From NCBI GenBank assembly GCA_029168955.1, contig JAPDOI010000374.1, positions 310,001 to 374,000 on the forward strand: a stretch of 64,000 bases of DNA, read 5' to 3'. Numbering within the stretch: position 1 is the stretch's first letter; every line of letters starts with the position of its first letter. The notes beneath the pieces are model-generated. The model saw nothing but the letters and a program-made list of their open reading frames with translations. It was not told the origin of the DNA and did no database searches. Shown here one piece after another: positions 3,001 through 61,790 of this stretch. The stretch comes from Aplectana chamaeleonis (lineage: Eukaryota; Nematoda; Chromadorea; Rhabditida; Cosmocercidae). Made by a program: the position numbers and the translations under genes.

Positions 3001-6000
3001 CGTCGTGAAAGTGCTTCGGGCTTCTGATGACGTCATCGGGACGTCGTGAAAGTGCTTCGGGCTTCTGATGACGTCATCGGGACGTCGTGAAAGTGCTTCG
3101 GGCTTCTGATGACGTCATCGGGACGTCGTGAAAAGTGCTTCGGGCTTCTGATGACGTCATCGGGACGTCGTGAAAGTGCTTCGGGCTTCTGATGACGTCA
3201 TCGGGACGTCGTGAAAGTGCTTCGGGCTTCTGATGACGTCATCGGGACGTCGTGAAAAGTGCTTCGGGCTTCTGATGACGTCATCGGGACGTCGTGAAAG
3301 TGCTTCGGGCTTCTGATGACGTCATCGGGACGTCGTGAAAAGTGCTTCGGGCTTCTGATGACGTCATCGGGACGTCGTGAAAGTGCTTCGGGCTTCTGAT
3401 GACGTCATCGGGACGTCGTGAAAAGTGCTTCGGGCTTCTGATGACGTCATCGGGACGTCGTGAAAAGTGCTTCGGGCTTCTGATGACGTCATCGGGACGT
3501 CGTGAAAGTGCTTCGGGCTTCTGATGACGTCATCGGGACGTCGTGAAAGTGCTTCGGGCTTCTGATGACGTCATCGGGACGTCGTGAAAAGTGCTTCGGG
3601 CTTCTGATGACGTCATCGGGACGTCGTGAAAAGTGCTTCGGGCTTCTGATGACGTCATCGGGACGTCGTGAAAGTGCTTCGTGCTTCTAATGACGTCATC
3701 GGGACGCCGTGAGAGTGCTTCGGGCTTCTGATGGCGTCATCGGGACGTCGTGAAAGTGCTTCGGGCTTCTGATGACGTCATCGGGACGTAGTGAAAAGTG
3801 CTTCGGGCTTCTGATGACGTCATCGGGACGTCGTGAAAAGTGCTTCATGCTTCTGACGACGTCATCGGGACGTCGTGAAAGTGCTTCGGGTTTCTGATGA
3901 CGTCATCGGGACGTCGTAAAAGTGCTTCGGGCTTCTTATGACGTCATCGGGACGTCGTGAAAGTGCTTCGGGCTTCTGATGACGTCATCGGGACGTCGTG
4001 AAAAGTGCTTCGGGCTTCTGATGACGTCATCGGGACGTCGTGAGAGTGCTTCGGGCTTCTGATGAGGTCATGGGGACGTCGTGAGAGTGCTTCGGGCTTC
4101 TGATGACGTCATCGGGACGTCGTGAAAAGTGCTTCGGGCTTCTGATGACGTCATCGGGACGTCGTGAAAGTGCTTCGGGCTTCTGATGACGTCATCGGGA
4201 CGCCGTGAAAAGTGCTTCGGGCTTCTGATGACGTCATCGGGACGTCGTGAAAAGTGCTTCGGGCTTCTGATGACGTCATCGGGACGTCGTGAAAGTGCTT
4301 CGGGCTTCTGATGACGTCATCGGGACGTCGTGAAAAGTGCTTCGGGCTTCTGATGACGTCATCGGGACGTCGTGAAAGTGCTTCGGGCTTCTAATGACGT
4401 CATCGGGACGTCGTGAAAAGTGCTTCGGGCTTCTGATGACGTCATCGGGACGTCGTGAAAGTGCTTCGGGCTTCTGATGACGTCATCGGGACGTAGTGAA
4501 AAGTGCTTCGGGCTCCTGATGACGTCATCGGGACGTCGTGAAAAGTGCTTCGTGCTTCTGACGACGTCATCGGGACGTCGTGAAAGTGCTTCGGGCTTCT
4601 GATGACGTCATCGGGACGTCGTGAAAGTGCTTCGGGCTTCTGATGACGTCATCGGGACGTCGTGAAAAGTGCTTCGGGCTTCTGATGACGTCATCGGGAC
4701 GTCGTGAAAAGTGCTTCGGGCTTCTGATGACGTCATCGGGACGTCGTGAAAGTGCTTCGGGCTTCTAATGACGTCATCGGGACGGCGTGAAAAGTGGTTG
4801 GGGCTTCTGATGACGTCATCCGGGACGTCGTGAAAGTGCTCCGGGCTCCTGATGACGTCATCGGGACGTCGTGAAAGTGCTTCGGGCTTCTGATGACGTC
4901 ATCGGGACGTCGTGAAAGTGCTTCGGGCTTCTGATGACGTCATCGGGACGTCGTGAAAGTGCTTCGGGCTTCTAATGACGTCATCGGGACGCCGTGAAAA
5001 GTGCTTCGGGCTTCTGATGACGTCATCGGGACGTCGTGAAAGTGCTTCGGGCTTCTGATGACGTCATCGGGACGTAGTGAAAAGTGCTTCGGGCTCCTGA
5101 TGACGTCATCGGGACGTCGTGAAAAGTGCTTCGTGCTTCTGACGACGTCATCGGGACGTCGTGAAAGTGCTTCGGGTTTCTGATGACGTCATCGGGACGT
5201 CGTAAAAAGTGCTTCGGGCTTCTGATGACGTCATCGGGACGTCGTGAAAGTGCTTCGGGCTTCTGATGACGTCATCGGGACGTCGTGAAAAGTGCTTCGG
5301 GCTTCTGATGACGTCATCGGGACGTCGTGAAAAGTGCTTCGGGCTTCTGATGAGGTCATGGGGACGTCGTGAGAGTGCTTCGGGCTTCTGATGACGTCAT
5401 CGGGACGTCGTGAAAAGTGCTTCGGGCTTCTGATGACGTCATCGGGACGTCGTGAAAGTGCTTCGGGCTTCTGATGACGTCATCGGGACGCCGTGAAAAG
5501 TGCTTCAGGCTTCTGATGACGTCATCGGGACGTAGTGAAAAGTGCTTCGGGCTTCTGATGACGTCATCGGGACGTCGTGAGAGTGCTTCGGGCTTCTGAT
5601 GACGTCATCGGGACGTCGTGAAAAGTGCTTCGGGCTTCTGATGACGTCATCGGGACGTCGTGAAAGTGCTTCGGGCTTCTGATGACGTCATCGGGACGCC
5701 GTGAAAAGTGCTTCGGGCTTCTGATGACGTCATCGGGACGTCGTGAAAGTGCTTCGGGCTTCTGATGACGTCATCGGGACGTCGTGAAAAGTGCTTCGGG
5801 CTTCTGATGACGTCATCGGGACGTCGTGAAAGTGCTTCGGGCTTCTGATGACGTCATCGGGACGTCGTGAAAAGTGCTTCGGGCTTCTGATGACGTCATC
5901 GGGACGTCGTGAAAGTGCTTCGGGCTTCTGATGACGTCATCGGGACGTCGTGAAAAGTGCTTCGGGCTTCTGATGACGTCATCGGGACGTCGTGAAAAGT

Positions 6001-9000
6001 GCTTCGGGCTTCTGATGACGTCATCGGGACGTCGTGAAAGTGCTTCGGGCTTCTGATGACGTCATCGGGACGTCGTGAAAAGTGCTTCGGGCTTCTGATG
6101 ACGTCATCGGGACGTCGTGAAAGTGCTTCGGGCTTCTGATGACGTCATCGGGACGTAGTGAAAAGTGCTTCGGGCTTCTGACGACGTCATCGGGACGTCG
6201 TGAAAAAGTGCTTCGGGCTTCTGATGACGTCATCGGGACGTCGTGAAAGTGCTTCGGGCTTCTGATGACGTCATCGGGACGACGTGAAAAGTGCTTCGGG
6301 CTTCTGATGACGTCATCGGGACGTCGTGAAAGTGCTTCGGGCTTCTGATGACGTCATCGGGACGTCGTGAAAAGTGCTTCGGGCTTCTGATGACGTCATC
6401 GGGACGTCGTGAAAAGTGCTTCGGGCTTCTGATGACGTCATCGGGACGTCGTGAAAGTGCTTCGGGCTTCTGATGACGTCATCGGGACGTCGTGAAAGTG
6501 CTTCGGGCTTCTGATGACGTCATCGGGACGTCGTGAAAGTGCTTCGGGCTTCTGATGACGTCATCGGGACGTCGTGAAAAGTGCTTCGGGCTTCTGATGA
6601 CGTCATCGGGACGTCGTGAAAGAAGTGCTTCGGGCTTCTGATGACGTCATCGGGACGTCGTGAAAGTGCTTCGGGCTTCTGATGACGTCATCGGGACGTC
6701 GTGAAAAGTGCTTCCAGGCTTCTGATGACGTCATCGGGACGTCGTGAAAGTGCTTCGGGCTTCTGATGACGTCATCGGGACGTCGTGAAAGTGCTTCGGG
6801 CTTCTGACGACGTCATCGGGACGTCGTGAAAGTGCTTCGGGCTTCTGATGACGTCATCGGGACGTCGTGAAAAGTGCTTCGGGCTTCTGATGACGTCATC
6901 GGGACGTCGTGAAAAGTGCTTCGGGCTTCTGATGACGTCATCGGGACGTCGTGAAAGTGCTTCAGGCTTCTGATGACGTCATCGGGACGTCGTGAAAAGT
7001 GCTTCGGGCTTCTGATGACGTCATCGGGACGTCGTGAAAGTGCTTCGGGCTTCTGATGACGTCATCGGGACGTCGTGAAAAGTGCTTCGGGCTTCTGATG
7101 ACGTCATCGGGACGTCGTGAAAGTGCTTCGGGCTTCTAATGACGTCATCGGGACGCCGTGAAAAGTGCTTCGGGCTTCTGATGACGTCATCGGGACGTCG
7201 TGAAAGTGCTTCGGGCTTCTGATGACGTCATCGGGACGTAGTGAAAAGTGCTTCGGGCTCCTGATGACGTCATCGGGACGTCGTGAAAAGTGCTTCGTGC
7301 TTCTGACGACGTCATCGGGACGTCGTGAAAGTGCTTCGGGCTCCTGATGACGTCATCGGGACGTCGTGAAAAGTGCTTCGTGCTTCTGACGACGTCATCG
7401 GGACGTCGTGAAAAGTGCTTCTGGCTTCTGACGACGTCATCGGGACGTCGAAAGTGCTTCGGGCTTCTGATGACGTCATCGGGACGTCGTGAAAGTGCTT
7501 CGGGCTTCTGATGACGTCATGGGGACGTCGTGAGAGTGCTTCGGGCTTCTGATGACGTCATCGGGACGTCGTGAAAAGTGCTTCGGGCTTCTGATGACGT
7601 CATCGGGACGTCGTGAAAGTGCTTCGGGCTTCTGATGACGTCATCGGGACGCCGTGAAAAGTGCTTCAGGCTTCTGATGACGTCATCGGGACGTCGTGAA
7701 AAGTGCTTCGGGCTTCTGATGACGTCATCGGGACGTCGTGAAAGTGCTTCGGGCTTCTAATGACGTCATCGGGACGCCGTGAAAAGTGCTTCGGGCTTCT
7801 GATGACGTCATCGGGACGTCGTGAAAGTGCTTCGGGCTTCTGATGACGTCATCGGGACGTAGTGAAAAGTGCTTCGGGCTTCTGATGACGTCATCGGGAC
7901 GTCGTGAGAGTGCTTCGGGCTTCTGATGACGTCATCGGGACGTCGTGAAAAGTGCTTCGGGCTTCTGATGACGTCATCGGGACGTCGTGAAAGTGCTTCG
8001 GGCTTCTGATGACGTCATCGAGACGTCGTGAAAAGTGCTTCGGGCTTCTGATGACGTCATCGGGACGTCGTGAAAGTGCTTCGGGCTTCTGATGACGTCA
8101 TCGGGACGTCGTGAAAAGTGCTTCGGGCTTCTGACGACGTCATCGGGACGTGGTGAAAAGTGCTTTGGCTCCTGATGACGTCATGGGGACGTCGTGAAAG
8201 GTGCTTCGGGCTTCTGATGACGTCACCGGGACGTCGTGAAAGTGCTTCGGGCTTCTAATGACGTCATCGGGACGCCGTGAAAAGTGCTTCGGGCTTCTGA
8301 TGACGTCATCGGGACGTCGTGAAAAGTGCTTCGGGCTTCTGATGACGTCGTTGGGACGTCGTGAAAGTGCTTCGGGCTTCTGATGACGTCGTCGGGACGT
8401 CGTGAAAAGTGCTTCGGGCTTCTAACGACGTCATCGGGACGTCGTGAAAGTGCTTCGGGCTTCTGATGACGTCATCGGGACGTCGTGAAAAGTTCTTCGG
8501 TCTTCTGATGACGTCATCGGGACGTCGTGAAAAGTGCTTCGGGCTTCTGATGACGTCATCGGGACGTCGTGAAAAGTGCTTCGGGCTTCTGATGACGTCA
8601 TCGGGACGTCGTGAAAAGTGCTTCGGGCTTCTGATGACGTCATCGGGACGTCGTGAAAAGTGCTTCGGCTTCTGATGACGTCATCGGACGTCGTGAAAGT
8701 GCTTCGGGGGCTTCTGATGACGTCATCGGGACGTCGTGAAAGTGCTTCGGGCTTCTGATGACGTCATCGGGACGTCGTGAAAGTGCTTCGGGCTTCTGAT
8801 GACGTCATCGGGACGTCGTGAAAAGTGCTTCGGTTTCTGATGACGTCATCGGGACGTCGTGAAAAGTGCTTCGGGCTTCTTGATGACGTCATCGGGACGT
8901 CGTGAAAGTGCTTCCGGGCTTCTGATGACGTCATCGGGACGTCGTGAAAAGTGCTTCAGGCTTCTGATGACGTCATCGGGACGTCGTGAAAGTGCTTCGG

Positions 9001-10470
9001 GCTTCTGATGACGTCATCGGGACGTCGTGAGTGCTTCGGGCTTCTGATGACGTCATCGGGACGTCGTGAAAAGTGCTTCAGGGCTTCTGATGACGTCATC
9101 GGGACGTCGTGAGAGTGCTTCGGGCTTCTGATGACGTCATCGGGACGCCGTGAAAGTGCTTCGGGCTTCTGATGACGTCATCGGGACGTCGTGAAAAGGG
9201 CTTCGGGCTTCTGATGACGTCATCGGGACGTCGTGAAAGTGCTTCGGCTTCTGATGACGTCATCGGGACGCCGTGAAAAGTGCTTCGGGCTTCTGATGAC
9301 GTCATCGGGACGTCGTGAAAGTGCTTCGGGCTTCTGATGACGTCATCGGGACGTAGTGAAAAGTGCTTCCGGGCTTCTGATGACGTCATCGGGACGTCGA
9401 AAGTGCTTCAGGCTTCTGATGACGCCATCGGGACGTCGTGAAAAGTGCTTCGGGCTTCTCGTGACGTCATCGGGACGTCGTGGAAGTGCTTCGGGCTTCT
9501 GATGACGTCATCGAGACGTCGTGAAAGTGCTTCGGGCTTCTGATGACGTCATCGGGACGTCGTGGGAAGAGCTTCGGGTTTCTAATGACGCCATCGGGAT
9601 GTCGTGAAAGTGCTTCGGGCTTCTTATGACGTCATCGGGACGTCGTGAAAGTGCTTCGGGCTTCTGATGACGTCATCGGGGCGTCGTGAAAAGTGCTTCG
9701 TGCTTCTGACGACGTCATCGGGACGTCGGGAAAGTGCTTCGGGTTTCTGATGACGTCATCGGGACGTCGTAAAGTGCTTCGGGCTTCTGATGACGTCATC
9801 GGGACGTCGTGAAAGTGCTTCGGGCTTCTGATGACGTCATCGGACGTCGTGAAAAGTGCTTCGGGCTTCTGATGACGTCATCGGGACGTCGTGAAAAGTG
9901 CTTCGGGCTTCTGATGACGTCATCGGGACGTCGGGAGAGTGCTTCGGTCTTCTGATGAGGTCATCGGGACGTCGTGAAAGTGCTTCGGGCTTCTGATGAC
10001 GTCATCGGGACGTCGAAAAGTGCTTCGGCTTCTGATGACGTCATCGGACGTCGCGAAAGTGCTTAGCTTCTGATGACGTCATCGGGACGCCGTGAAAAGT
10101 GCTTCAGGCTTCTGATGACGTCATCGGGACGTCGTGAAGAAAGTGCTTCGGGCTTCTTATGACGTCATCGGGACGTCGTGAAAGTGCTTCGGGCTTCTGA
10201 TGACGTCATCGGGACGTCGTGAGAAGTGCTTCGGGCTTCTGACGACGTCATCGGGACGTCGTGAAAGTGCTTCGGGTTTCTGATGACGTCATCGGGACGT
10301 CGTGAAAAGTGCTTCGGGCTTCTTATGACGTCATCGGGACGTCGTGAAAGTGCTTCGGGCTTCTGATGACGTCATCGGCACGTCGTGAAAAGTGCTTCGG
10401 GCTTCTGATGACGTCATCGGGACGTCGTAAAAAGTGCCTCGAGTTTCTGATGACGTCATTGGGACGTCGT
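1..10470. repeat. 41/42-bp satellite array with CRE-like palindrome
   Basis: About 250 head-to-tail monomers, roughly 41 or 42 bp long. The two lengths differ mainly by one A in GTGAAAGTG versus GTGAAAAGTG. Each monomer carries GATGACGTCATCGGGACGTC, which includes the 8-bp palindrome TGACGTCA, followed by AGTGCTTCGGGCTTCT. Monomers 1-8 kb differ by few substitutions; from about 8.15 kb indels and variants rise, as expected near an array edge. The left edge lies outside the window. Because 42 is divisible by three, repetitive reading frames of 60-110 codons appear on both strands; they are by-products of the repeat and not genes. No spacers are present, so it is not a CRISPR array. Confidence 0.97.
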
Positions 10471-11590
10471 GCCCCCCCCCGTCTAGGATAGTCCCAAGAG
10501 TGCTTCGGGCTTCTAATGACGTCATCGGGACATCGTGAGAAGTGCGGGACTATCCTAGAGGGGGGGCACTCAAGATTCAAGTCAGAAATGGAATGAACCA
10601 CCGATCTATAACGCTATCAATCAAAGTATCTCTACACAACTTCATCAACAACAATGAGTGATAGCAGCATCAAGCACCTTTTATCAAGGTTTCCATTCAT
10701 TTTCACGAGAAAGTCGTGGGTGCCCCCGTCTAGGATAGTCCCAAGAGTGCTTCCGGGCTTCTGATGACGTCATCGGGACATCGTGAGAAGTGCGGGACTA
10801 TCCTAGACGGGGCACTCAAGATTCAAGTCAGAAATGGAATGAACCACCGATCTATAACGCTATCAATCAAAGTATCTCTACACAACTTCATCAACAACAA
10901 TGACTGATAGCAGCATCAAGCACCTTTTATCAAGGTTTCCATTCATTTTCATGAGAAAGTCGTGGGTGCCCCCCCCCCCCGTCTAGGATAGTCCCAAGAG
11001 TGCTTCGGGCTTCTGATGACGTCATCGGGACATCGTGAGAAGTGCGGGACTATCCTAGACGGGGGGGCACTCAAGATTCAAGTCAGAAATGGAATGAACC
11101 ACCGATCTATAACGCTATCAATCGAAGTATTTCTACAGAGCTTCATCAACAACAATGAGTGATAGCAGCATCAAACATCTTTTATCAAGGTTTCCATTCA
11201 TTTTCATGAGAAAGTCGTGGGTGCCCCGTCTAGGATAGTCCCAAGTGTGCTTCGGGCTTCTGATGGCGTCATCGGGACACCGGGAGAAGTGCGGGCCTAC
11301 CCCAGACGGGGGGGGGGCACTCAAGATTCAAGTCAGAAATGGAATGAACCACCGATCTATAACGCTATCAATCGAAGTATTTCTACAGAACTTCATCAAC
11401 AACAATGATTGATAGCAGCATCAAACATCTTTTATCAGGTTTTCCATTCATTTTCATGGGAAAATCGTGGGTGACCCCGTCTAGGATAGTCCCAAAGTGC
11501 TCCGGGCTTCTGATGACGTCATCGGGACGTCGTGAAAAGTGCTTCGAGCTTCTGATGAAGTCATCGGGACGTCGTGGAAACCCGGATAGT
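10469..11590. repeat. Composite ~248-bp tandem units containing one satellite monomer
   Basis: Four full units and a broken fifth, with GTCTAGGATAGTCCC starting at 10,481, 10,728, 10,981, 11,228 and 11,479 (spacings 247, 253, 247, 251). Each unit has a left arm GTGCCCC..GTCTAGGATAGTCCC, a loop of about 50 bases that is one satellite monomer, and a right arm GGGACTATCCTAGACGGGGGGCAC. About 155 bp of unrelated sequence follows (from AAGATTCAAGTCAGAAATGG to AGAAAGTCGTGG). The C/G runs in the arms vary in length. The fifth unit lacks its right arm and carries two degraded monomers instead. Confidence 0.92.
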
Positions 11591-23767: not shown

Positions 23768-24060
23768 AGCTTAACTGGATTTAATGCCGATTTGTGCTTA
23801 CCAGATCATACCCGTTAACGGGTGATTGCTGTTGTGCCTACACAGTTCATGTGTGAATAGCTGAGGAATGCAGAGCGGGGTGTCGGTAGTGTAATGGTAA
23901 CACTCTCGCCCGGTAAGCGATGCAATGCGGGTTCGATTCCTGCCTGACACCTAAGTTTTGTATTCAACTCAGCTACCTTGTGACATTTCGTGATTATATA
24001 TCATGCCATAATAAAGGCAATAAAATATTCTAAAACAATAAAGAAGGCATTGAAGGTTCA
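23768..24060 (+). mobile_element. tRNA-derived repeat (SINE-like), copy 1
   Basis: About 290 bp conserved with the copies near 33 kb. It has a ~110-bp 5' flank (AGATCATACCCGTTAACGGG, GTGATTGCTGTTGTGCCTAC), a tRNA-like core, then a 3' part (TTCAACTCAGCTACCTTGTG, ATCATGCCATAATAAAGGCA). Because conservation extends well beyond the tRNA on both sides, this is a dispersed repeat and not a lone tRNA gene. Confidence 0.75.
23879..23951 (+). tRNA. tRNA-like core of SINE, probable pseudo-tRNA
   Basis: Acceptor stem GGTGTCG/TGACACC (7 pairs, one G-T), D arm GTGT-AATGGTA-ACAC, T arm GCGGG-TTCGATT-CCTGC. The anticodon stem CTCGC/GCGAT has one mismatch. The seven-base loop CCGGTAA has C at position 33 where U is nearly universal, and GGT at the anticodon position. 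A and B boxes are well kept. Overall closest by eye to a Gly-type body, but the identity is unresolved. Confidence 0.6.
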
Positions 24061-26960: not shown

Positions 26961-27414
26961 CTGAAGGCAGGGTATTCGATAAAAACGACTTCTGAGCTCT
27001 ATTCATTAGAATGTAGATTTGGTCATCACAAAAGCAAAAACAAGTGAGAAAACCCGGGAATTCGCGGGAAAAACGCTCAAAAACAAGGTGTAACGGCTAA
27101 TTACCGGTGTCGGCCGGCCCCCTAATTAACGAGATTTTCATCAATGCTTGTTTATCCGCCTTTTATTTTGCTGTTAAAATAGTCAGTAGTCTCCAGAAGT
27201 GCCCAGAATAAACTTTGGAAACAGAATGAAAGTTAACAAAACAGGCTTTCATAGAAATCTCCCTAATTTGAGGACACCAGGCAGTAACTTGTTCCTGAGA
27301 GTTTTTTATCCAATTTTTTACTTATATTCACTTTTGTGATGCCCACATCTACCTTTTCATGAAGGTAGCACAACAACCGCTTTTATCGCGAACCCTGCCT
27401 TTAACCTATCCTCA
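26961..27414. mobile_element. TTAA element, family B, uninterrupted copy
   Basis: Ends AAGGCAGGGTATTCGATAAA and TTTTATCGCGAACCCTGCC then TTAA. It contains AACGGCTAATTACCGGTG and TTTATTTTGCTGTTAAAA. It is the reverse complement of the interrupted copy at 46,515-47,454, so it serves as an empty-site reference. Non-coding. Confidence 0.8.
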
Positions 27415-27589
27415 CAGTTACTCTTCCTATCCAACAAGCTGAAAGCTGATGTGCGTCTCACCTTTAGATGATTGCTATGATGATACTCCGCTTAATGACT
27501 GGTTTTTCATGTTTTTCTTTGCCCATTGGCCAATTAATATTACATGTATATTAATTCAGGCCTTTTATATTACATGTAACGTGTTTTCA

Positions 27590-27919
27590 TTTTTGTGAGT
27601 AGGGAAGCATTGTGGACGAGTTGTCCGAGGCTTGTAACTTTTGCAGCCGATGTACAAGCTGACCTGAGTAAAGAGAAGTTGAGAATGAAGGAAAACGGGG
27701 CTTTTGATCGGAAACCATCGCTCATCTGAGTGTTCATTCGTTCGCGGACCTGGAGCACGGGCGGTTCTGGAACACCAAAACGCTTGTTTGCAGTAGCTAT
27801 TTTGCCACTCCTGGCTCGTTTTCTACGGCTATTTCGACACCGGGAGCCTAGGAACCTTCTCGCCAAGCATTTCACTGTGGAAGGTCACTGAGGATGATCA
27901 TCGTGAACGCTGCCTTTAA
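27590..27919. mobile_element. TTAA element, family C, partial
   Basis: Ends GATCATCGTGAACGCTGCC then TTTAA. It matches 19,600-19,800 in reverse complement, and its left part (GTGGACGAGTTGTCCGAGGC, CTTTTGATCGGAAACCATCG) matches the interior of 49,082-49,570. The left end is not defined. Confidence 0.65.
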
Positions 27920-28106
27920 ATAGAAGAGTTGCTGACCGATTTCGACTCCGGTTTTGCTAACTACGGTAACTCACTATCCGCGGTAAGATTGATGAATCCA
28001 GCCTCAGAAGGGCAGGGAGCTGAACGAGGAATCGCGGTGAAGCACCACATGATTAGGGGCCATGTGATTTGTGTTCAACAAATCGTGGATGTCTCTCTAA
28101 CACACT

Positions 28107-28280
28107 AATCATACTTTTGCGATAGCGGCGAATACCGCGGAATATCAGCAGAAAAATGAGAAATTAGATGTCTTATACCGTCATCAGGCATTTGATTTCT
28201 CATTTTAGAACGGTATTAGACATCTAATTTCTTATTTTCCTACTGATAATCGCGGCATTTGCCGCTCTCGCAAAAGTATT
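28107..28280. repeat. Hairpin at the Penelope 3' boundary
   Basis: TACTTTTGCGATAGCGGCGA..CTTATACCG pairs with CGGTATTAGACATC..GCTCTCGCAAAAGTA, giving arms of about 68 bp with a small loop. Only the right arm is present in the tandem Penelope copies at 35-37.5 kb. The left arm is therefore either a chance neighbour (an inverted end of another copy) or the target of the insertion. Confidence 0.7.
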
Positions 28281-28615
28281 ATGAAGATGTAAGCCAAATT
28301 CATAGTGAGAGCAACCAAGGACTGCAGGTAGATACGCACCTGGGCGACCTGTAGAGATCCTCATAAAAACAGAAATAAGATAAAATTGTTTCGCCTCCAA
28401 ACCCTAGACAATCATGAGAGGTATTCAAGGAGTCATGATAGGAATAGACTAAAGCTGACACTCCCCAAGGCTCGTCAGCAGGGTAAGGAGTGTAGTATAA
28501 GAATGCCTTGAGAAGAAGCTATTTATGTGACTCTGAGGTCAAAATGAGGTATTTAGGACGCGTTCTAGTCTTTTCTATGGTGAAAGTCAGAGAAAATGAT
28601 GTCATTGCTCATTTA

Positions 28616-28890
28616 TACTCTGTTCATCTTGAATTGCACAAAACACGGTCCGCCAATAGTCCTCTAATTGGCCCGCTAGTACCGTAGTGTACGTCCACGA
28701 CGCGTTCTCGGCAGACCCGGGTGGCAGGGTGGGTGCCCGAGTGACGGCATTGACGAATCGATTGCTCTGCACACCGGGTGCACACCCGGGTCTGCCGAGA
28801 ACGCGTAGTGGACTTACACTACGGTACTAGCGGGCCAATTAGAGGACTATTGGCGGACCGTAGTTTGTGCGATTCAAGATAAACAGAGTA
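28616..28890. mobile_element. Palindromic TA-flanked MITE in Penelope stop codon
   Basis: 275-bp near-palindrome with arms of about 110 bp (TACTCTGTTCATCTTGAATT / ..TCAAGATAAACAGAGTA) and a GC-rich centre, TA on each side (28,614-28,615 and 28,891-28,892). The four other Penelope 3' copies read CATTTAGCTAGCATTG with no insert, so the exact empty site with a single TA is visible in this window. TA duplication is the hallmark of Tc1/mariner-type transposition. Confidence 0.92.
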
Positions 28891-31672
28891 TAGCTAGCAT
28901 TGATTATGGCAAAAAGGGTGGTTTTTATAAGTTTAAAGTCGTTACATAATCCAATTTGGTGTCCGAGGTTATTTTCAATAATACACTTCAAAAAAGCTTT
29001 GAGGATAAACTGTCTGGAATACTGCAGGTCAACTAGGTTGTTGCTAAGTATTTTGATCCTATCTTCGAAATCCTTTTTTAAGGAACAAGCCCTCGAATTT
29101 CTAAGAGTTTCTGTGTAACTTATAGCTTCTTTCAGTTCAGAGGAAATATTTGATTCAAAATGAGGAAATCTGTGAACTTTTAAATCGAAAAGTTTCGTTT
29201 TTATTATACAATTTTGTAAGTATTCTATCATTATGAATTTTTATTTTTAGATCTAAATATACGCAGTTTTTCTCATCAATATGTTTAGTTTCAAAACTCA
29301 TTATGTTTTGATATGTGTTAGTAAGGAAATTAGTGATGAATTCTCCATCTAAGTTATGTATGACCAGAAGATCATCCATATATCTGTAAGGTTCAAAAAT
29401 TTTATTAGCTCGAATAGGTAGAGCTTTGGAAGAGATGTATTCCAAGTAACTCACAGTAAGATCTGCTATGACCGGACTAGCATGTCCGCCTTGTGAACAC
29501 CCATGATTTGCTTAAAATTCTTATCACCAACTCTACAGTAACTATTGTTCAAAATGTACTCAAGAAAGTAGATTAAATCCTGCAGTTGATAAAATCTGTA
29601 CTTAGAGTTTTCATTCTTATCGGTATAAAAGGTGTTGAAATTATTGGTAGCCACATATTTTTTATTTGAATTTTTAAAGCAAATTTTCAGAAGTTCAGTA
29701 ATGTTATGAACAATTTTTTCATGCGAAATATTAGTAAACATATTGGTAAAGTCGGCAGAGTACAATTTTAGATTTTCTCCAACTATTTTCCCAACTGTGA
29801 AGAGATGTTTATGTTGTCTATTGCCCAAAAATTTTTGAAGCATCTTATGTTATTCATAACTGCGTTACAGTAATTTCTAAAGTGATTTTTGATGAAGGTA
29901 AACACATTTTTGATTTCTATCGCTAATTTCTTAATGCTGCTGTTATAAGCACCACACATGAAGCGGAGTTCGATTGGGTTTCTATGTAATTTAGGTATAC
30001 AAAAGATGATTGGCATATCAGAATCTAAATTGAACTTATAATATTATTAGAAATCATGAGTTTTCTATGTTTTTCTATAATTTCTTGGCTATTTTCAATT
30101 GCTGTTGGTTGATAAATATCATGAGTAACGATTTCTCGAGATAGTATACCCATTTCGTTTAATAAGATTATTAAATAAAGTTTTTTGCACACAAAACCGT
30201 AGTTATTACTGGTTTTGTCCAAGGGGCAAACAATGAATTTGTCATGTATAAATTTTATTCTATTATTCAAATTATTCAAGGAAATACTCTTAACCTTGCT
30301 CAAGTTATTAATTAATGGTCTTATTTTACGAAAAAAATGGAGAAAATAAAACATCAAAATGTCTAATTTTATCTGCGTTCAGCTTATATCTGCTCCTAAT
30401 TTTTGTTCTAACCTGTTCTAAAAATTGATTCCGGATGTTTTTAATTTCTACAATTTTTCTATTAATTATGGGCCTAAACTTTACACCCTTTTGTAGAATA
30501 TATTTGATGGCAGGATCATTAACTATGTCAATATTTCCTGTTACTATATGTTTGTAGTGAGGGTCTCGAAATCGTGCAAAGAAGTTGGAATCGCAATCAC
30601 AAGAAGAATGATTAATTTCTTGAATATGATATTTTTGAGAAATTTATTACAGTTGAAAACCGATTTCGAAATGGGATTTTTATAGCTATAAACTACTCTA
30701 AAAGGAACAAAATTTACTTTAGAGTTTTGTGAAATAAAATTATTAATGATCTTATTGTTGACAAATTTGTTGATATTACTGTGATTTAATATATCATTGT
30801 AAAAAGGGAGACTTATGTTAACGAAATTGGATTTTGGTTTTTCTGAAGAGTATCTATTGTTGCGGAAATAATGTAAACACAGAGAAAGGAATAAAATAAG
30901 TTTTTTATGTTCACTTATTACAAAAGGCAGAGAATCGTTGATAACAAGCTGGACTAAAGTATCAAGAAAGTTTTTATTTTTATTTTTGAAACATCTAAAG
31001 ATATCGTATTTGCTGTTATGTTGTGTCTGAATATTCAAAGTAAATTCAGAAACTTCTTCAGGACTATATTTCCTCTTTTTCTTTTTCTTTTTGTTATTAC
31101 CTCTATTACTACGTTGTTTAACTACCTTCAGATTGAAAAATGGATGATTAGGTTTACTATGTAGGAGAGGATTTTTTATACAAGAGAGATCACCATAACC
31201 TTTGATATTATCATTAAAACCAAAAGGAATTGCTGTCATAAGTAACTTTATCCAGAATAACTTTTTTCCAGTAACACATTTTTATCTTTGTTTTCTTCTA
31301 GGTTATCGAGAATGGAGAAACTAATATTGTTAGGATCACGTCCATCTTGCAAAAAATGCTCTTGAAAAACTTTGCTTTCTTTGTTTTTTATGTTTCTGAG
31401 GTGTTCCAACATCCTGGCCTTGAGTTTTCTAGTAGTGATTCCTACGTACTGTCTATTGCAGTCTGTGCAGGTAATACAATAGACTACATTAGTAGAGTTA
31501 CAATCGCTGAGTGATTCTTTGAACGTATGAATTTTGAATTTGGTAACACAGCATTCTATAATGTGGTGATGATTCATCTTTGGACAAATAACACATTTCT
31601 TGTTAGCACAATTAGAGCTTTTGTTTTCGTTACCAAAAGAAGCGAGATAGTAAACACCTTCTTTTTTATTTT
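28891..31672 (-). pseudogene. Penelope-like GIY-YIG/reverse transcriptase ORF (degraded)
   Basis: Reading down the minus strand: a Cys/His-rich start (about 31,640-31,560, including CVICPK then HHH); GIY-YIG with CITCTDCNRQYVGITTRKLK near 31,430-31,485 and EH at the expected place; its C-terminal part WIKLLMTAIPFGFND continues across a one-base frameshift near 31,253. A KKKKKKRK linker follows. The Penelope RT N-terminal motif HIVTGNIDIV..KGVKFRPIINR lies at about 30,555-30,460 in another frame. Next come CIPKLHRNP (about 29,980-30,003), motif A YSADFTNMF (about 29,735-29,763), motif B GVH..GGHASP split by a one-base loss near 29,490, and YMDD at 29,371-29,382. At least four frame changes occur. 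Intact length would be about 900 residues. In related copies the frame ends Asn-Ala-Ser-stop at the site of the TA insertion. Confidence 0.85.
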
Positions 31673-32601
31673 ATGAAAAAGTTTGTTGCAATAATATTTT
31701 TCAGGGGAGCTTTGTGGCAGAAACAACGGACGGACCAACTTGGCCCCGCTCCGGCGCGTCCGCCGGCCGCCCTTCTCCCAAAACGTTGTGTGATTTATGA
31801 TTTAGCCCGAAAGTTTTGGACCGCGAGCTGGCTAATATAGGCTCATAAGAATTAGCCAGTGGGAGGGGGTTGCACAAAAGTGCTTTGGTTGGGCTGCAAC
31901 CAGGACCCAGCAAGGCCCTAAGAAAGGTGCAGTCTCTAGCCTCCCGAAGTCACCCACCCCCACCATGCTGGGCGACTTCTTATAAGGGGATCACAGAGAC
32001 TGTATAGGGCGTCACTATCTCAGAAAATTATTTGTTAAAAGAGTAGTTTCAAAGTACGAAAAAACAGTTTGTGTGTATGTTGGAAAGACTAAAAGGTATC
32101 AAAATTATAGATGATTAAGACTAGGAAGTGAATGAGTAATAAAGAAAGGTTATGTAAAATTATTATAAGAATACAAAAAAGTCGAATGGCAATAAAAGGA
32201 AGGAAATGTGCTCTAAAGAAACGACATAGCTACTGTAAAATGTTAGAATCACTGGGTGGCCTAGAAAGATTGGGCTGACTTCTTATTATCTTAACTTCTT
32301 GATAATCCATTTTTTCTATTATATCTTGTTAGAACTATCTGCACTAACTTATCTTTCTCTATTAGTATACTCGAGTGAAATGAGTTTTTGCGATGCAAAA
32401 CTTCTGATGGGTGTATGAACAAATTAACTGTATGATCAAAATTCAATCGAACATATGAAATTGCAGTTAAGTATGTGATTTCTATGTAAAAAGGTAAGGG
32501 TCAAGTACTATTTAAGTGAATGAGAGAAATGAAATCTTTCAATAGTTGAAAAGCAAGAAAATTAGGACAAATGTTAATTAAAAGTTACTATGTTGTTTCA
32601 G
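31673..32601. other. Between Penelope ORF and first called exon
   Basis: Begins with a GC-rich block (31,700-31,990, CCGGCGCGTCCGCCGGCC) and turns AT-rich. Upstream exons of the following gene may lie here (an acceptor-like GAAATTGCAG at about 32,460-32,470), but none could be supported. Confidence 0.35.
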
Positions 32602-34084
32602 AAAAGGAAATTGGGAATGAAAGTGGATGATGCGTTACGTAAGCGAAGGTTCGAGGATAATCTACAATCGAAAGTATGGTATTAATGGAATGGGTAACAA
32701 TACTAGAGACACCTATATGTAGGTTTCAAAAAGGACTACGTATTATTGCTAAGAGGAATACCAACTTGGATAAGGTGAGTCTAATCTAGTGAATTCAAAT
32801 TTAAAGAATAATAAAACGGCCGTGAATTTCAGCTATCCATTCGATGATGACAAGGAACCCTTTACGTGGCCATTACCCGCTGGCAAGAAACGTGAGATCA
32901 CAAGGTAGCTGAATTGAACGCAAAACTCAGATGTCAGGCAGGACTCGAACCTGCATAGCACGCTTTCCGGGCGAGAGCGTTACCATTACACCACCGACAC
33001 CCCGTTCTGCATCCCACAGCGATTCACACATGCACTGTGTGGGAAAAACAGCAATCACCCGATGACGGGTATGATCTGGTAAGCACAAATCGGCATTAAA
33101 CCCAGTTAAGCTTAGGCCTTTCGAAGACAGAATTTCAAGTGATTCGGGTGATTGCTGTTGTGCCTACACAGTTCATGTTTGAATAGCTGAGGGATGCAGA
33201 ACGGGATGTCGGTGGTGTAATGGTAACACTCTCGCCCGGAAAGCGTGCAATGCAGGTTCGAGTCCTGCCTGACATCTGAGTTTTGCGTTCAATTCAGCTA
33301 CCTTGTGATAACTTGTGATCATATACCATGCCATAATAAGGCATCAAATATTCAAAAACATCAGTAACGTGAGACTTTACACATAAGCGTAAGTTGAAGA
33401 TTCTAGAGTGGTAGAAAAAGGGGATTTGGATAAAATAATAAATTTTAGGTAAAGATGACTTGGAAGTTTTGAAATTATTTCATAACTATAGGTAAAGAAA
33501 AGCTTAAAGAGTTCAATGTCAAAAACAAGTGCAACATCTCATTCAATCAGGAAAGGAGTCTGAGAACCGCGGAAAGGACGAAACTATGGTGAGAACTTAA
33601 GAAATTAGAGAAATACAACAGAAAAAGGGAGAAAACCCGAATATAATTATAATTTCAGCTTGTTCGTACGACACCAGATAAGAACGATGTATCAGAAAAT
33701 TGGTAGCAAACCCATCAACATGAAATTCCAAAGGGATCAATTGAAATTGGGAGAGATGGGGGTAAGTTGGAAAGAGAAAAATAATGAATAGAAACATCCC
33801 GTTCTCAAAATTAAGAATACAATCAGTGAAATTAAGGTATTCAATCCGCTCGAGCTGGTTGAGAGGATGGAGCTAGACATGACTGAGTGGTATGGAATGG
33901 ATATGGATTTTTTGTCTGATGAGCGAACCCTCAAATCCAAACAGGTAAAGTAAAAAGCGAAAAGTTATAGAATCAGCAACCAAAGTAAAAATTTTAAATT
34001 CAGGAAGCCACAAAGTGCAACCTCTATTGCTGCCAGGATTGGAACGGAAAAGGAAGGCAACCGGCAATGAACCTAATGGTGTAG
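32602..34084 (+). CDS. Unrecognised spliced gene or gene remnant
   Basis: Exon-like segments with canonical borders: 32,602-32,673 (KRKLGMKVDDALRKRRFEDN..), 32,707-32,774 (..FKKDYVLLLRGIPTWIR), 32,833-32,897 continuing at 33,375-33,388 after a SINE pair (YPFDDDKEPFTWPLPAG..), 33,449-33,491 (KDDLEVLKLFHNYR), 33,551-33,588 (KESENRGKDETM), 33,659-33,702 (LVRTTPDKNDVSEN), 33,827-33,944 (EIKVFNPLELVERMELDM.. to LKSKQ), 34,004 on. Phases agree for exons 1-2-3 and 5-6-7-8, but exon 4 does not join in phase. The first intron would be only ~33 bp. Acceptors include TTTCAG and ATCAG. The last exon stops at 34,084 in phase, though a Lys/Glu-rich frame runs on to 34,161. No family recognised; it may be a broken gene. 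Confidence 0.4.
32930..33001 (-). tRNA. tRNA-like core of SINE (minus copy)
   Basis: On the minus strand: acceptor GGTGTCG/TGACATC, D arm, mismatched anticodon stem CTCGC/GCGTG around the loop CCGGAAA, and T arm GCAGG-TTCGAGT-CCTGC. GGA stands at the anticodon position and C at position 33. There is no long variable arm, so it is not a normal serine tRNA. Probable pseudo-tRNA. Confidence 0.6.
33205..33276 (+). tRNA. tRNA-like core of SINE (plus copy)
   Basis: Acceptor GATGTCG/TGACATC, same D and T arms as the other copies, loop CCGGAAA. Flanking sequence is shared with the copy at 23.8 kb on both sides. Confidence 0.6.
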
Positions 34085-34161
34085 TCAAAAGGAACAAAAA
34101 GGACGAAGAAGCTCTGGAGAACAAAGAAGCCATCTTTAATGCGGATAATATGGATATATAG

Positions 34162-34663
34162 AAGAAATTTTTTTTGAAATGTGCATGAAAATGAAGATTG
34201 GTAACGTTTGTGTACTACCATAAAAGACAATGAAACAGAACCAACAAACCAAAGCAAAATGAGAAGTAGGAAACTTATCACTAATCGTAGGTAAATAGAA
34301 AAAGGATAAGAAGACGAAAGCTGATACAAGGAAAATGTAATGAAAAAGTGGAAGAGGACAAGAATAGACTGATAAAGCTTTTTGAAGTGAAGTAAATTAT
34401 GGTGAAGGAAAAAGGAAGAGCAAGAACATAACGAGATTTCCAGATAATCGATATAGGGAATTGAGAAATCAATGAAGTGGCCGTACGGCCGGCCGTATGG
34501 CCTCAAGCAGAAGCAGCCGCATGGCTAAAAAAGGAAGGTGAAACCGAAGTAAAGGAAGAAACTATACATGGAGAATAGGAGAATGAAGATGAATACCTCG
34601 GACTGGTATCAGTTAACCTCCTGGGCTTCCCTCAAGGAAGTCAACTTAGCCAGCAAAATGCAA
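34162..34663. other. Non-coding, purine-rich plus strand
   Basis: AG-rich on the plus strand. The opposite-strand open frames are Phe/Ser/Leu-rich translations of this bias and were not called. A palindromic block GCCGTACGGCCGGCCGTATGGC lies at about 34,480-34,501. Confidence 0.45.
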
Positions 34664-37640
34664 TAAAAACAGAAATAAGACAAGATTGTTTCGCCTCTAA
34701 ACCCTATACAATCATGAGAGGTATTCAAGGAGTCATGATAGGAATAGACTAAAGCTGACACTCCCCGAGGCTCGTCAGTAGGGTAAGGAGTGTAGTATAA
34801 GAATACCTTGAGAAGGACCTATTTATGTGACTCTGAGGTCAAAATGAGGTATATAGGACGCGTTCTAGTCTTTTCTGTGGTGAAAGTCAGAGAAAATGAT
34901 GATCATTGCTCATTTAGCTAGCATTGATTATGGCGAAAAGGGTGTTTTTATAAGTTTGAAGTCGTTACCTAATCCAATTTTGTGTCCGAGGTTATTTTTA
35001 ATAATACACTTCAAAAAAGCTTTGAGGATAAATTGTCTGGAATACTGCGGGTTAACTAGGTTGTTGCTAAGTATTTTGATCCTATCTTCGAAATCCTTTT
35101 TTTAAGGAACAAGTTCTCGAAATTCTAAGAGTTTCTGTGTAAATTATAGCTTCTTTCAGTTTAGAGGAAATATTTGATTCAAAATGAGGAAATCAGTGAA
35201 CTTTAAAATTGAAAAGTCCCGTTTTATTACACAATTTTGTAAGTATTCGTATCATTATGAGTTTTTATTTTATTATTATTTCTTATTTTTCTACTGATAA
35301 TCGCGGCATTTTCCGCTCTCGCAAAAGTATGATGAAGATGTAAGCCAAATTCACAGTGAGAGCAACCAAGGACTGCAGGTCGGTACGTACCCGGGCGACC
35401 TGTAGAGATCTTCATAGAAACAGAAATAAGATAAGATTGCTTCGCCTCCGAACCCTAGACAATCATGAGAGGTATTCAAGAGAGTCATGATAGGAATAGA
35501 CTATAAAGCAGACTTGCCTCCACACGAGGCTCGTCAGTAGGGTAAGGAAGTGTAGTAAAAATAAGAATGCCTTGAGAAGGACCTATTTATGTGACTGAGG
35601 TCAAAATGAGGTATATAGGACGCGTTCTAGTCTTTTCTGTGGTGAAAGTCAGAGAAAATGATGATCATTGCTCATTTAGCTAGCATTGATTATGGCGCAA
35701 AGGGTGGATTTTATAAGTTAAAAGACGTTACCTAATCCAATTTTGTGTCCGAGGTTATTTTCAATAATACACGTCAAAAAAGCTTTGAGAATAAATTGTC
35801 TGGAATACTGCAGGTTAGCTAGGTTGTTGCTAAGTATAAATTATAGCTTCTTTCAGTTTAGAGGAAATATTTGATTCAAAATGAGGAAATCAGTGAACTT
35901 TAAAATTGAAAAGTCCCGTTTTATTACACAATTTTGTAAGTATTCGTACCATTATGAATTTTTATTTTATTATTATTCCTTATTTTCCTACTGATAATCG
36001 CGGCATTTTCCGCTCTCGCAAAAGTATGATGAAGATGTAAGCCAAATTTACAGTGAGAGCAACCAAGGACTGCAGGTAGGTACGTACCCGGGCGACCTGT
36101 AGAGATCTTCATAGAAACAGAAATAAGATAAGATTGCTTCGCCTCCGAACCCTAGACAATCATGAGAGGTATTCGAGGAGTCATGATAGGAATAGACTAA
36201 AGCTGACACTCCCCGAGGCTCGTCAGTAGGGTAAGGAGTGTAGAATAAGAATGCCTTGAGAAGGACCTATTTATGTGACTGAGGTCAAAATGAGGTATAT
36301 AGGACGCGTTCTAGTCTTTTCTGTGGTGAAAGTCAGAGAAAATGATGATCATTGCTCATTTAGCTAGCATTGATTATGGCGGAAAGGGTGGTTTTTATAA
36401 GTTAAAAGTCGTTACCTAATCCAATTTTGTGTCCGAGGTTATTTTCAATAATACACGTCAAAAAAGCTTTGAGGATAAATTGTCTGGAATACTGCAGGTT
36501 AACTAGGTTGTTGCTAAGTATTTTGATCCTATCTTCGAAATCCTTTTTTAAGGAACAAGTTCTCGAATTTCCAAGACTTTCTGTGTAAATTATAGCTTCT
36601 TTCAGTTTAGAGGAAATATTTGATTCAAAATGAGGAAATCAGTGAACTTTAAAATTGAAAAGTCCCGTTTTATTACACAATTTTGTAAGTATTCGTATCA
36701 TTATGAATTTTTTATATTTTATTATTATTCTGTTATTTTCCTACACCTTTGATAATCAAGCGGCATTTTTCCGCTCTCGCAAAGTATGATGAAGATGTAA
36801 GCTTGCAAATTTACAGTGAGAGCAACCAAGGACTGCAGGTAGGTACGTACCCAAGCGACCTGTAGAGATCTTCATAGAAACAGAAATAAGATTGTTTCTG
36901 CCTCCAGAACCCTAAGAACAATCATGAGAGGTATTCAAGGAGTCATGATAGGAATAGACTAAAGCTGACACTCCCCGAGGCTCGTCAGTAGGGGTAAGGA
37001 GTGTAGTATAGAGAATGCTCTTTGAGAAGGGGACCTATTTATGTGCCTGAGGTCAAAATGAGGTATATAGGACGCGTTCTGAGTCTTTTCTATGGTGAAA
37101 GTCAGAGAAAATGATGATCATTGCTCATTTAGCTAGCATTGAGTTATGGCGGAAAGGGTGAGTTTTTATAAGTTAAAAGTCGTTACACCTAATCCAATTT
37201 TGTGTAACCGAGGTTATTTTCAATAATACACGTCAAAAAGCTTTGAGGATAAAATTGTCTGGAATACTGCAGGTTAAACTAGGTTGTTGCTAAGTATTTT
37301 GATCCTATCTTCCGAGGAAATCACTTTTTTAAGGAACAAGTTCACTCAATTTCCAAGACTTTCTGTGTAAATTATAGCTTCTTTCAGTTTAGAGAGGAAA
37401 TATTTGATTCAAAATGAGTAGAAATCAGTGAACTTTAAAATTCAGAAAAGTCCCGTTTTATTACAACAATTTTTGTGGAAGTATTCGTATCATTATGAAT
37501 TTTTATTTTATTATTCTTCACTTATTTTCCTACTGATAATCGCGGCATTTTCTTCGCTCTCGCGAAAGTATGATGAAGATGTAAGCCAAATTTACAGTGA
37601 GAGCAACCAAGGACTGCAGGTAGGTATGGCTTCCTGCTTT
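34664..37640 (-). repeat. Tandem 5'-truncated Penelope 3' ends (four copies)
   Basis: Head-to-tail units joined where TTTTATTTTATTATT (inside the RT C-terminal region) meets CTTATTTTCCTACTGATAATCG (the element's 3' end). Junctions fall near 35,275, 35,975, 36,725 and 37,515. Units are about 700-790 bp. Each holds the RT C-terminal tail up to Asn-Ala-Ser-stop, the 3' region and the right half of the 3' hairpin. Head-to-tail 5'-truncated copies are a known outcome of Penelope retrotransposition. The last unit has many small extra bases. Confidence 0.85.
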
Positions 37641-37792
37641 TCATTCTAGTCTGACGCATGGGCAAGGCGGCTGGCCGTGCTGGCTGTGATTGGCGGCACT
37701 CACTGGAGAATGGAGGTTTCGATTCGCTTGCGGGGTGATCTACCGTCGCAGCCCTGTCCATTCATCGGACTAAAACTGATTGCGCGAAACTC
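37626..37792. other. 167-bp insertion in the last Penelope copy
   Basis: Sequence TGGCTTCCTG..GCGAAACTC interrupts GGTAGGTACGTACCC, which is continuous in the other copies. A TA may be duplicated at the ends, but no inverted repeats are visible. Origin unknown. Confidence 0.5.
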
Positions 37793-38440
37793 TACGTACC
37801 CAGAGCGACCTGTAGAGATCTTCATGTTGTGAGAGGGGGCGGAAAGAAGAGCAGCAGGTGAAAAATAATTTTGTAGGATTGGAGCTGCGTTTTCTCGAAT
37901 TACATATGTATGCTACGCGTTTCTCTCTTTTAACAATACATCACCCCTCGCTCGCGAAAAGAAAGAAAGTTTCCCCGAAAATATGGAATGCAGCTAGAAA
38001 TACTCCCAATTAAAGCAGATTCATATAGCAGTGCAGCCCATGTGCGTGAACACTTCGCGTTATTTTTGGAGAGAGTACTGAAAATACACAAGCCATCCAA
38101 GTCGACGTTTAAAAAAAAACTAAATGAGGAGGAATTCGCGCACTGTGGTTTTCTAACTGGAGCGAATCAGTCTCGTCGCCGTGCTCCATCATGTTTTAGA
38201 AGTTTGTAATTTGTCATCGGCACAAAATTCTCATGGAAGTGTAGGGTTTTTCTTCCGAGAGTTTTCCATGTTTAGAGCTCTTTATCCCCGATGAGACTGT
38301 TTCCGTACTCCTCAGCTTCAGCACCTCATCTGTGGAGAAAGGCGGGGTGTGAATGAAAACGCACCGCTCTCCATTTCTGTTATACCCTACCCTTTATCAA
38401 TTGGGTATCATCAATTTTACTTACCGGGAAAATTTCCTGG
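37793..38440. other. Non-coding, nothing recognised
   Basis: Short open frames only. No repeat partner was identified in the window. Confidence 0.4.
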
Positions 38441-53823: not shown

Positions 53824-54640
<817 letters not shown>

Positions 54641-60507: not shown

Positions 60508-61790
60508 ATTAAAACATTACTTTATAAGAGTACCAGATAAGTTTTAAGTTTTGTCGTTCGATGAGAGAGGGCGTTGCTACTAGCCCGAATTTTTTTTTAT
60601 TTTGTTGGTACACTCTCCATATGAACGTATGTGAAGTTTCATTTCAATCTGTCAATTCATTCTCTTTTTACAAGCCATTTAGTGTCGCCGTGTCACAGCA
60701 ATGGAAAAATTGAATATCGTGCAGTGATAAAATTCTAATTTTTGGAAGGTGTAGCATCAAAAGAAATTCACGAACGAATGTTAAAAGTGTATAATGATTG
60801 TTCGCCTGCAATTGGAACAGTAGAAAGATGGGTTGCTGATTTTAAACGTGGTCGTACAAGCCTTGAAGACGATCCACGTGAAGAACGTCCAAAAAGCGCA
60901 TCAACACCAGAAATCATAGCCAAAATAAAGGATATGGTTTTGGGAGACCGTCGATTGACTGAGAGACATTTAGTGGAGGCTCTACACATCTCATTAGGCA
61001 GTGTGAGCCGTATTTAGAGTGAAGCTTTGGGTTTTAGAAACCTGTGTGCACAATGGGTGCCGCATTCGCTAACAATGGAACAACGACAAATTTAAATGCG
61101 ACTTTCTCAGCAACATTTTGAGCGTTTTAAAAAGGATAAAGTGGATTTAATGCGTCGATTTATCACTATGGATGAGACTTGGGTCTATCACCATGATCCT
61201 GGATCAAAACAAGAGGCTAAAGAGTGGTGTGAACCTGGTTGTTAGGCTTCGAAACGAGTTCGTGTCAGGAAATCGGCCAAGAAGGTTATGGCATCAGATT
61301 TTTTGGTATGCGAAAGGAATGTTGTTCGTGAATTACTTGCAAACTGGTAAATCATTTATTTCTGAATATTATTGCAACCTTTTGGACCAGTTGAAGCAAA
61401 AAATTTGTGAAAAAAGACCCGGTTTGCAGAAGAAAAAAATCCCTTTCCATCAGTACAATGCACCGTGTCACAAGAGCATTTTGACAATGGCTAAAATCCA
61501 TGAATTAAAGTTCGAATTGTTGGAGCATCCACCTTATTCACCAGATTTGGCCCCCAGCGACTTCCATTTGTTTCCAGAACTCAAAAAATTTATGCGTGGC
61601 AAGCGTTTTCTATCAAATGAAAAGGTCATAACAGCTGTTCAAGCGTATTTTGCAGATCTTTCGGATTCTCACTTCAGGGATGGGATCCACAGATTTGAGG
61701 ATCGTTGGAGCAAGTGTATTAGTGTTTTTTTAATAATAATACGTTTATCGGTTACTGGGCTATAAAAACGATTCAGTTATCAGAATGCAA
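60508..61790 (+). mobile_element. mariner-like element (dead)
   Basis: Surrounds the transposase pseudogene. Possible inverted ends are a diverged pair near 60,510-60,555 and 61,740-61,775 (TTATCTGGTACTC read from the left end, reversed, against TTATCGGTTACTG), but the exact termini and the TA duplication could not be fixed. Confidence 0.6.
60701..61765 (+). pseudogene. mariner transposase pseudogene
   Basis: Start ATG at 60,701, one-base frameshift within five codons, then a paired helix-turn-helix region: KEIHERMLKVYNDCSPAIGT, ERWVADFKRG, DRRLTERHLVEALHISLGSV. In-frame stops at 60,736, 61,015, 61,093 and 61,243; a second frameshift in a T run near 61,300. The catalytic D,D34D core is partly kept: MDETW (61,168) and YSPDLAPSDFHLFPE have their Asp, but the middle motif reads FHQYNAPCHKS, where mariners have FHQDNAPCHKS. 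So a catalytic Asp is now Tyr. Intact mariner transposases are about 345 residues, matching this span. Not functional. Confidence 0.95.

Follow-up and report, generated by a model that had tools for sequence, protein, structure and literature searches.

On the minus strand of a 64-kb stretch of the Aplectana chamaeleonis genome (the window, C1462:310001-374000 of an assembly of 1.04 Gb in 2087 contigs), a GIY-YIG endonuclease (EN) precedes the motifs of a telomerase-like reverse transcriptase (RT). This arrangement raises the question of whether both domains belong to one Penelope-like element (PLE) with an N-terminal EN, as the preliminary description of this DNA had proposed, or whether fragments of different elements have come to lie side by side. 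The region 28364-34662 (-) is read here, with a probability of about 0.96, as the degenerate remnant of a Penelope-like retrotransposon with an N-terminal endonuclease, the Naiad type; this name derives from shared features, the trees having no named Naiad or Chlamys reference sequence among their rows. The element is thus a divergent addition to a kind of N-terminal-endonuclease Penelope that is already known.

The coding region of the window copy (28893-31670, -) is broken into eight frame pieces by seven frame changes, so this copy is dead and unable to make the protein. Its overlapping minus-strand pieces cover 31670-28839, and their read-through comprises 929 aa. Along the minus strand, they hold a Cys/His segment (CANKKCVICPKMNHHH, 31563-31610), the GIY-YIG domain (31201-31511), a Lys-rich linker (31065-31110), a CxC motif (CDC, 30593-30601), a KGVKFR motif (30473-30490), and a telomerase-like RT core (29180-30033), with the Asp of motif A at 29751-29753 and YMDD at 29371-29382. 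The CDC motif and KGVKFRP share one frame (30326-30643, -). Pfam, the frames and tblastn all corroborate the order that had been proposed, with the nuclease upstream of KGxKFR and the RT motifs, and the Cys/His segment and the Lys-rich linker were both found in the frame pieces at their expected places. PF01541 (GIY-YIG) matches the frame 31248-31670 (-) with E=1.3e-6, above the Pfam cut-off, while RVT_1 matches the YMDD-bearing frame 29155-29511 (-) with E=2.3e-4, below it. The continuity of the protein, also proposed earlier, is upheld by an unbroken frame of 245 codons (30544-31281, -), which runs from the end of the nuclease through the linker to just before the CxC motif. Five EN queries, two of them from C-terminal-EN elements, detected no further GIY-YIG in the window at E<=1.

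The nuclease domain, delimited by Pfam and by alignment column counts, carries C68, C71, H90, and H105. Each of these four residues, as well as Y64, Y75, G77, and R86, has a counterpart in 84-91 of 94 relatives, the remainder being nearly all gaps, and in 9/9 C-terminal-EN sequences. A frame change lies near the conserved Glu of the domain; this residue (E107 of the relative P0001) has no partner in the read-through, where it falls at a frame joint chosen by us. E135 was considered as the catalytic Glu and rejected, since its alignment column is not conserved. A C-x(1-5)-C-x2-C pattern within the first 110 aa, upstream of the nuclease, is held by 68 of 95 N-terminal-EN sequences, the window among them. 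At the other end, the recognisable protein stops at 28893, where a palindromic insert (28614-28892, arms of 110 nt, 95% complementary) interrupts the 3' end of the ORF; this insert is missing from all four truncated units described below. One of the ORF pieces ends at a TGA; internal stops are excluded by the way the pieces were defined. Nothing was found in support of a selenoprotein reading, and no SECIS was detected at the Rfam threshold.

Homology to single proteins with the same domain order was demonstrated with six relatives used as tblastn queries against the window, four with an N-terminal and two with a C-terminal EN. P0001 (2.3e-117), P0002 (7.7e-60), and, more weakly, P0003 and P0014 gave matches ordered from EN to RT, whereas the C-terminal-EN relatives P0004 and P0010 match only the EN of the window. 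Shuffled controls (two-base blocks of 28201-31700) gave a match at E<=0.01 in 0/50 cases. The read-through aligns with P0001 over 94% coverage at 40% identity, with P0002 over 95% at 27%, and with P0003 over 94% at 25%. Pfam finds no GIY-YIG in these three proteins, whose EN is recognised by alignment and by an HMM partly built from them, and in P0001 also by its fold. The predicted model of P0001, the nearest relative, matches I-TevI, and its RT half (residues 303-908) is predicted to share the fold of telomerase reverse transcriptase; a sequence search of solved structures gave weak matches only.

The wider protein set contains 132 relatives and the window; the P0003 profile search gave 168 matches, of which the best 120 were used, and a profile search with A1 supplied one additional protein. 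Regular expressions left 84/133 sequences unsorted, and two HMMs built from eight sequences, the window included, were used instead. They placed the EN before the RT in 95 sequences and after it in 9, with no EN match in 29. The 95:9 ratio mirrors the search, as the last query was itself an N-terminal-EN protein and all nine C-terminal-EN proteins came from the first search. A C-x-C followed by H-x-x-[TSV]-[GA]-[DNE] occurs in 92/95 N-terminal-EN sequences (all except P0048, P0113, and P0131), vs. 0/9 C-terminal-EN sequences. Independently of these HMMs, in ten relatives picked for a listed GIY-YIG, Pfam places this domain upstream of RVT_1 in eight and finds GIY-YIG alone in two; it lies downstream in P0004, P0006, P0007, P0010, and P0012. 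For the RT motifs A and B, the window has a spacing of 88, equal to the median of the N-terminal-EN sequences (62-99), compared to 63-72 in the C-terminal-EN ones, which, judged by spacing only, fits a fingers-domain insertion between both motifs. A search for relatives among genome contigs and viral contigs gave 165 and 56 pattern matches, none of them confirmed.

Two unrooted trees place the element in the N-terminal-EN clade. The first, built from the RT only, holds 45 of the 133 rows (the window, P0001-P0003, every third of the 91 others, the nine C-terminal-EN proteins, and P0013). Its 35 N-terminal-EN rows are separated at 100/100, the window groups with P0001 (100/99) and then with P0002 (99/94), and long branches lead to P0132 and P0013. 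The second contains 60 rows, 27 of which are copies from the host genome with at least 230 RT residues. The window, P0001, and these 27 copies form one group (100/99), followed by P0002 (91/98), and all N-terminal-EN rows are again split from the C-terminal-EN rows at 100/100; the program flags long branches, including P0132 (with the C-terminal-EN side), P0002, and P0118. The placement with N-terminal-EN PLEs suggested earlier is therefore confirmed by the RT trees, and a GIY-YIG downstream of the RT occurs only in the nine database relatives, all of them across a 100/100 branch.

The host genome is rich in relatives of this element. A search of the assembly with P0001 gave at least 52 matches (50 of 7039 candidates scored), many of them in open frames of 900-990 codons. 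Among 30 loci fetched with P0001, where the order was read from the longest stop-to-stop frame, the EN lies before the RT in 21 and after it in 0, with no EN match in 9; the 21 EN-bearing loci hold one EN each, and the CxC motif occurs in 20 loci. The nearest host copy to the window is 50% identical over the RT. In the RT tree, the terminal branches of some host copies are shorter than 0.01 changes per column, suggesting that these were copied recently. These open frames and near-identical copies suggest recent movement, and make biochemical tests possible.

With this evidence, the alternatives to the Naiad-type reading can be weighed. A chance juxtaposition, in which a GIY-YIG fragment of one element would lie upstream of the RT of another, could account for the different frames of both sets of motifs, and other repeats have indeed been inserted nearby. 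However, the 245-codon frame covers the end of the nuclease and the linker, and the same order is found in two further copies of the family and in the 21/30 host loci; because genome copies keep the EN before the RT, this explanation is contradicted, and its probability is practically nil. An element of the Chlamys type would also hold its EN before the RT, and the trees contain no named references; nevertheless, the window has the CCHH residues in its nuclease, which Chlamys elements are not known to have, and the mariner-like fragment of the window and the 1.04-Gb genome would suit an animal host, so that a Chlamys-type element is very improbable. More consideration is due to the possibility that the element represents a deep N-terminal-EN branch of its own, next to the published Naiads, although this is still unlikely. 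The grouping of the window, P0001, and the 27 host copies, with P0002 next to them, speaks for it, as does the shortest path of 3.76 (tree 1) from the window to any N-terminal-EN row beyond P0001 and P0002. On the other hand, the N-terminal-EN side starts from an open fork, several long branches are flagged, and both CxC and CCHH are as in most other N-terminal-EN sequences.

Returning to the Naiad-type element, its limits were defined by comparison with other genomic copies. The preliminary description had delimited it to 28210..31672; an element does lie there, but its true span is larger, a long copy running from a 5' end at 34662 to a 3' end at 28364 (-) with at least two inserts. The stretch from 34662 to 31671 is 86-96% identical to L052 (C8), 92% to L051 (C75), and 90-91% to L050 (C389). 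It lies upstream of the ORF in C8, as does its part from position 2159 onwards in C75, and in C389 it comes after the 3' end of a truncated copy. This stretch (31671-34662, -; about 2.5 kb without its insert) is thus the 5' region of the element. Comparison of the genome copies overturned an alternative reading of 31671-34663 as unrelated to it. In C75 and C8, the two long copies of the family examined, the nuclease part of P0001 matches upstream of its RT part (2/2), and both also look broken, with two stops in C75. The longest frame of the 5' region gave no Pfam match; frames of this region in the window (34024-34524, -), L052, and L050 have 166, 153, and 153 codons, respectively, and are partly alike. 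The insert (32898-33362) is absent from L050 and L052, and contains an inverted repeat (32897-33309) with 166-nt arms, 94% complementary, and a tRNA-Ser-like sequence in each arm. A stretch related to this repeat (23768-24037) holds a tRNA-Thr-like sequence.

With 40 of 87 candidates scored, the 3' non-coding region (28364-28613, -) gave at least 42 matches across the host genome, five of them within the window. At 17 loci outside the window, the end of the element falls immediately after TTATTTCTGTTTTTA or no more than a few bases away, three loci differing by one letter. Past this common 3' end, the flanks are unlike each other, two pairs excepted, while the 5' ends vary. The copies thus share a fixed 3' end and are truncated at the 5' side. 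Flanks are shared by L034 and L036, and by L046 and L047, probably because each pair stems from a larger duplication or represents two haplotypes present in the assembly. No microsatellite was seen by eye in the first 40 bases past the 3' ends of the 17 copies, including the two pairs with a common flank.

Upstream of the long copy, four truncated units are arranged in tandem on the minus strand, each made up of a segment S, the last part of the ORF (from about 29247), and the 3' region, with identities to the long copy of 84.6-95.2% by piece. Unit 1 (36875-37824) comprises S at 37521-37824 with an insert, ORF end at 37132-37509, and 3' region at 36875-37129; unit 2 (36112-36874) has them at 36733-36874, 36363-36712, and 36112-36360; unit 3 (35415-36111) at 35979-36111, 35679-35968 (interrupted), and 35415-35676; and unit 4 (34664-35414) at 35282-35414, 34917-35271, and 34664-34914. 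Unit 4 is joined directly to the 5' end of the long copy, and the joint (34663/34664), which forms a pseudo-LTR, also occurs in L050, on another contig. According to PMC8969392, such tandem joints of truncated and long copies are usual for PLEs.

Segment S itself (28231-28363, -; 133 bp) adjoins the 3' end of the long copy and recurs before the four truncated units. At the outer left edge of the array, it is split by an insert, and its matches comprise 20 bp (95%) and 106 columns (92.5%). This direct repeat around the insertion could be taken for a part of the element, either its 5' end or a 3' tail, considering how S recurs before the units and after the long copy. This interpretation is, however, improbable: 17/17 other copies lack S within 1.5 kb of their 3' region, none of the 49 loci fetched outside the window's own contains it, the 3' end of the element precedes S, and at either edge S borders on dissimilar sequence. 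Because it is absent from those 17 copies, S probably represents target DNA that was duplicated both around the insertion and within it. Its last part lies in a palindrome that continues beyond the edge of S as far as 28097, which would be expected if S is target DNA. This palindrome (28097-28293) has an Rfam MIR7504 match (28147-28244) below the gathering score on both strands, which was rejected as such and read as a palindrome; it is perhaps a MITE that received the insertion of the element. The simplest history would be an arrangement S-truncated-long-S, with S as a 133-bp target duplication, followed by multiplication of S plus the truncated copy.

A second case is L038 (C99:1225605-1228852), a truncated copy of the same family with a 191-bp direct repeat (98.4%) abutting both ends. 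Ten other copies with a 5' break were checked, the breaks being the ends of matches and two copies sharing flanks: L038 shows this repeat, L044 an exact 8-bp repeat, and in eight none was found. In 81 flank pairings from nine loci, an abutting repeat of at least 30 bp occurs only in L038's own pair. These data, two loci vs. eight without any repeat, allow for a further reading, less likely than not, in which target duplications of great length (133 bp in the window, 191 bp in L038) may accompany insertion in this lineage, as if both strand cuts lay more than 100 bases apart; in the window, the duplicated target and a truncated copy would then have been multiplied into a short array. Such duplications are the sole surprising detail of the element; among the best 15 of 42 literature titles, none reports them for PLEs, which is no proof of absence. 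For C-terminal-EN PLEs, target duplications of 8-10 bp or none are given in Adineta (PMC3846280).

The mechanism of insertion may be proposed by analogy with canonical PLEs, from which nicking and target-primed copying are deduced. Intact relatives encode one protein, whose N-terminal GIY-YIG domain would cut chromosomal DNA and whose telomerase-like RT would copy the element RNA from the cut end. The resulting copies would be tandem or truncated at the 5' side, while their 3' end stays fixed. A purified PLE from Anolis cleaves both strands of AT-rich DNA and extends this DNA by internal initiation (PMC11167929). By analogy with this protein, cDNA would be primed from the break made by GIY-YIG, and a wide offset between both strand cuts would account for S and the L038 repeat. 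If general, long target duplications would offer a measure of the distance between these cuts.

Naiads are a widespread group with the EN-before-RT order, and N-terminal-EN+ PLEs (Naiad/Chlamys) show an insertion bias for microsatellites. Naiad / N-terminal-EN+ PLEs were reportedly described by Craig, Yushenova, Rodriguez, and Arkhipova in 2021 (MBE 38:5005), with GIY-YIG before RT, CxC, CCHH, a longer A-B spacing, tandem truncated units, and no hammerhead. The window's element shares these features, with its upstream GIY-YIG, CxC linker motif, CCHH nuclease, additional residues separating the RT motifs A and B, and tandem truncated copies; no hammerhead ribozyme was found in 10000-64000 at the gathering score, the only threshold applied to the units at 34.6-37.8 kb, nor in 27000-33500 at E<=5. 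Unlike Naiads, the window copy is degenerate and divergent, with no internal TGA in pieces that exclude stops by construction, and long direct repeats (133 bp in the window, 191 bp in L038) accompany two insertions; no microsatellite target was seen by eye in the 40 bases next to the 17 3' ends. With Penelope/Poseidon, Neptune, and similar C-terminal-EN PLEs, it shares a GIY-YIG with CCHH, a telomerase-like RT, and tandem and truncated copies; their EN, however, follows the RT, their RT lies across the 100/100 branch, and the CxC pattern occurs in 0/9. Telomerase reverse transcriptase shares the predicted RT fold (P0001, 303-908), but differs in that it is encoded by a host gene and lacks this nuclease. 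The telomerase kinship of these RTs is also shown by the fold predicted for the nearest relative. The locus adds a divergent N-terminal-endonuclease Penelope family, in a host genome with many open-frame, nearly identical relatives.

Other features were observed in the window. A 41-bp satellite, repeated about 250 times (94% matches), fills its first 10.5 kb (1-10471), a (CA)108 microsatellite (96% matches) lies at 54025-54240, and a mariner-like transposase fragment (PF01359, E=1.1e-11) at 61151-61765.
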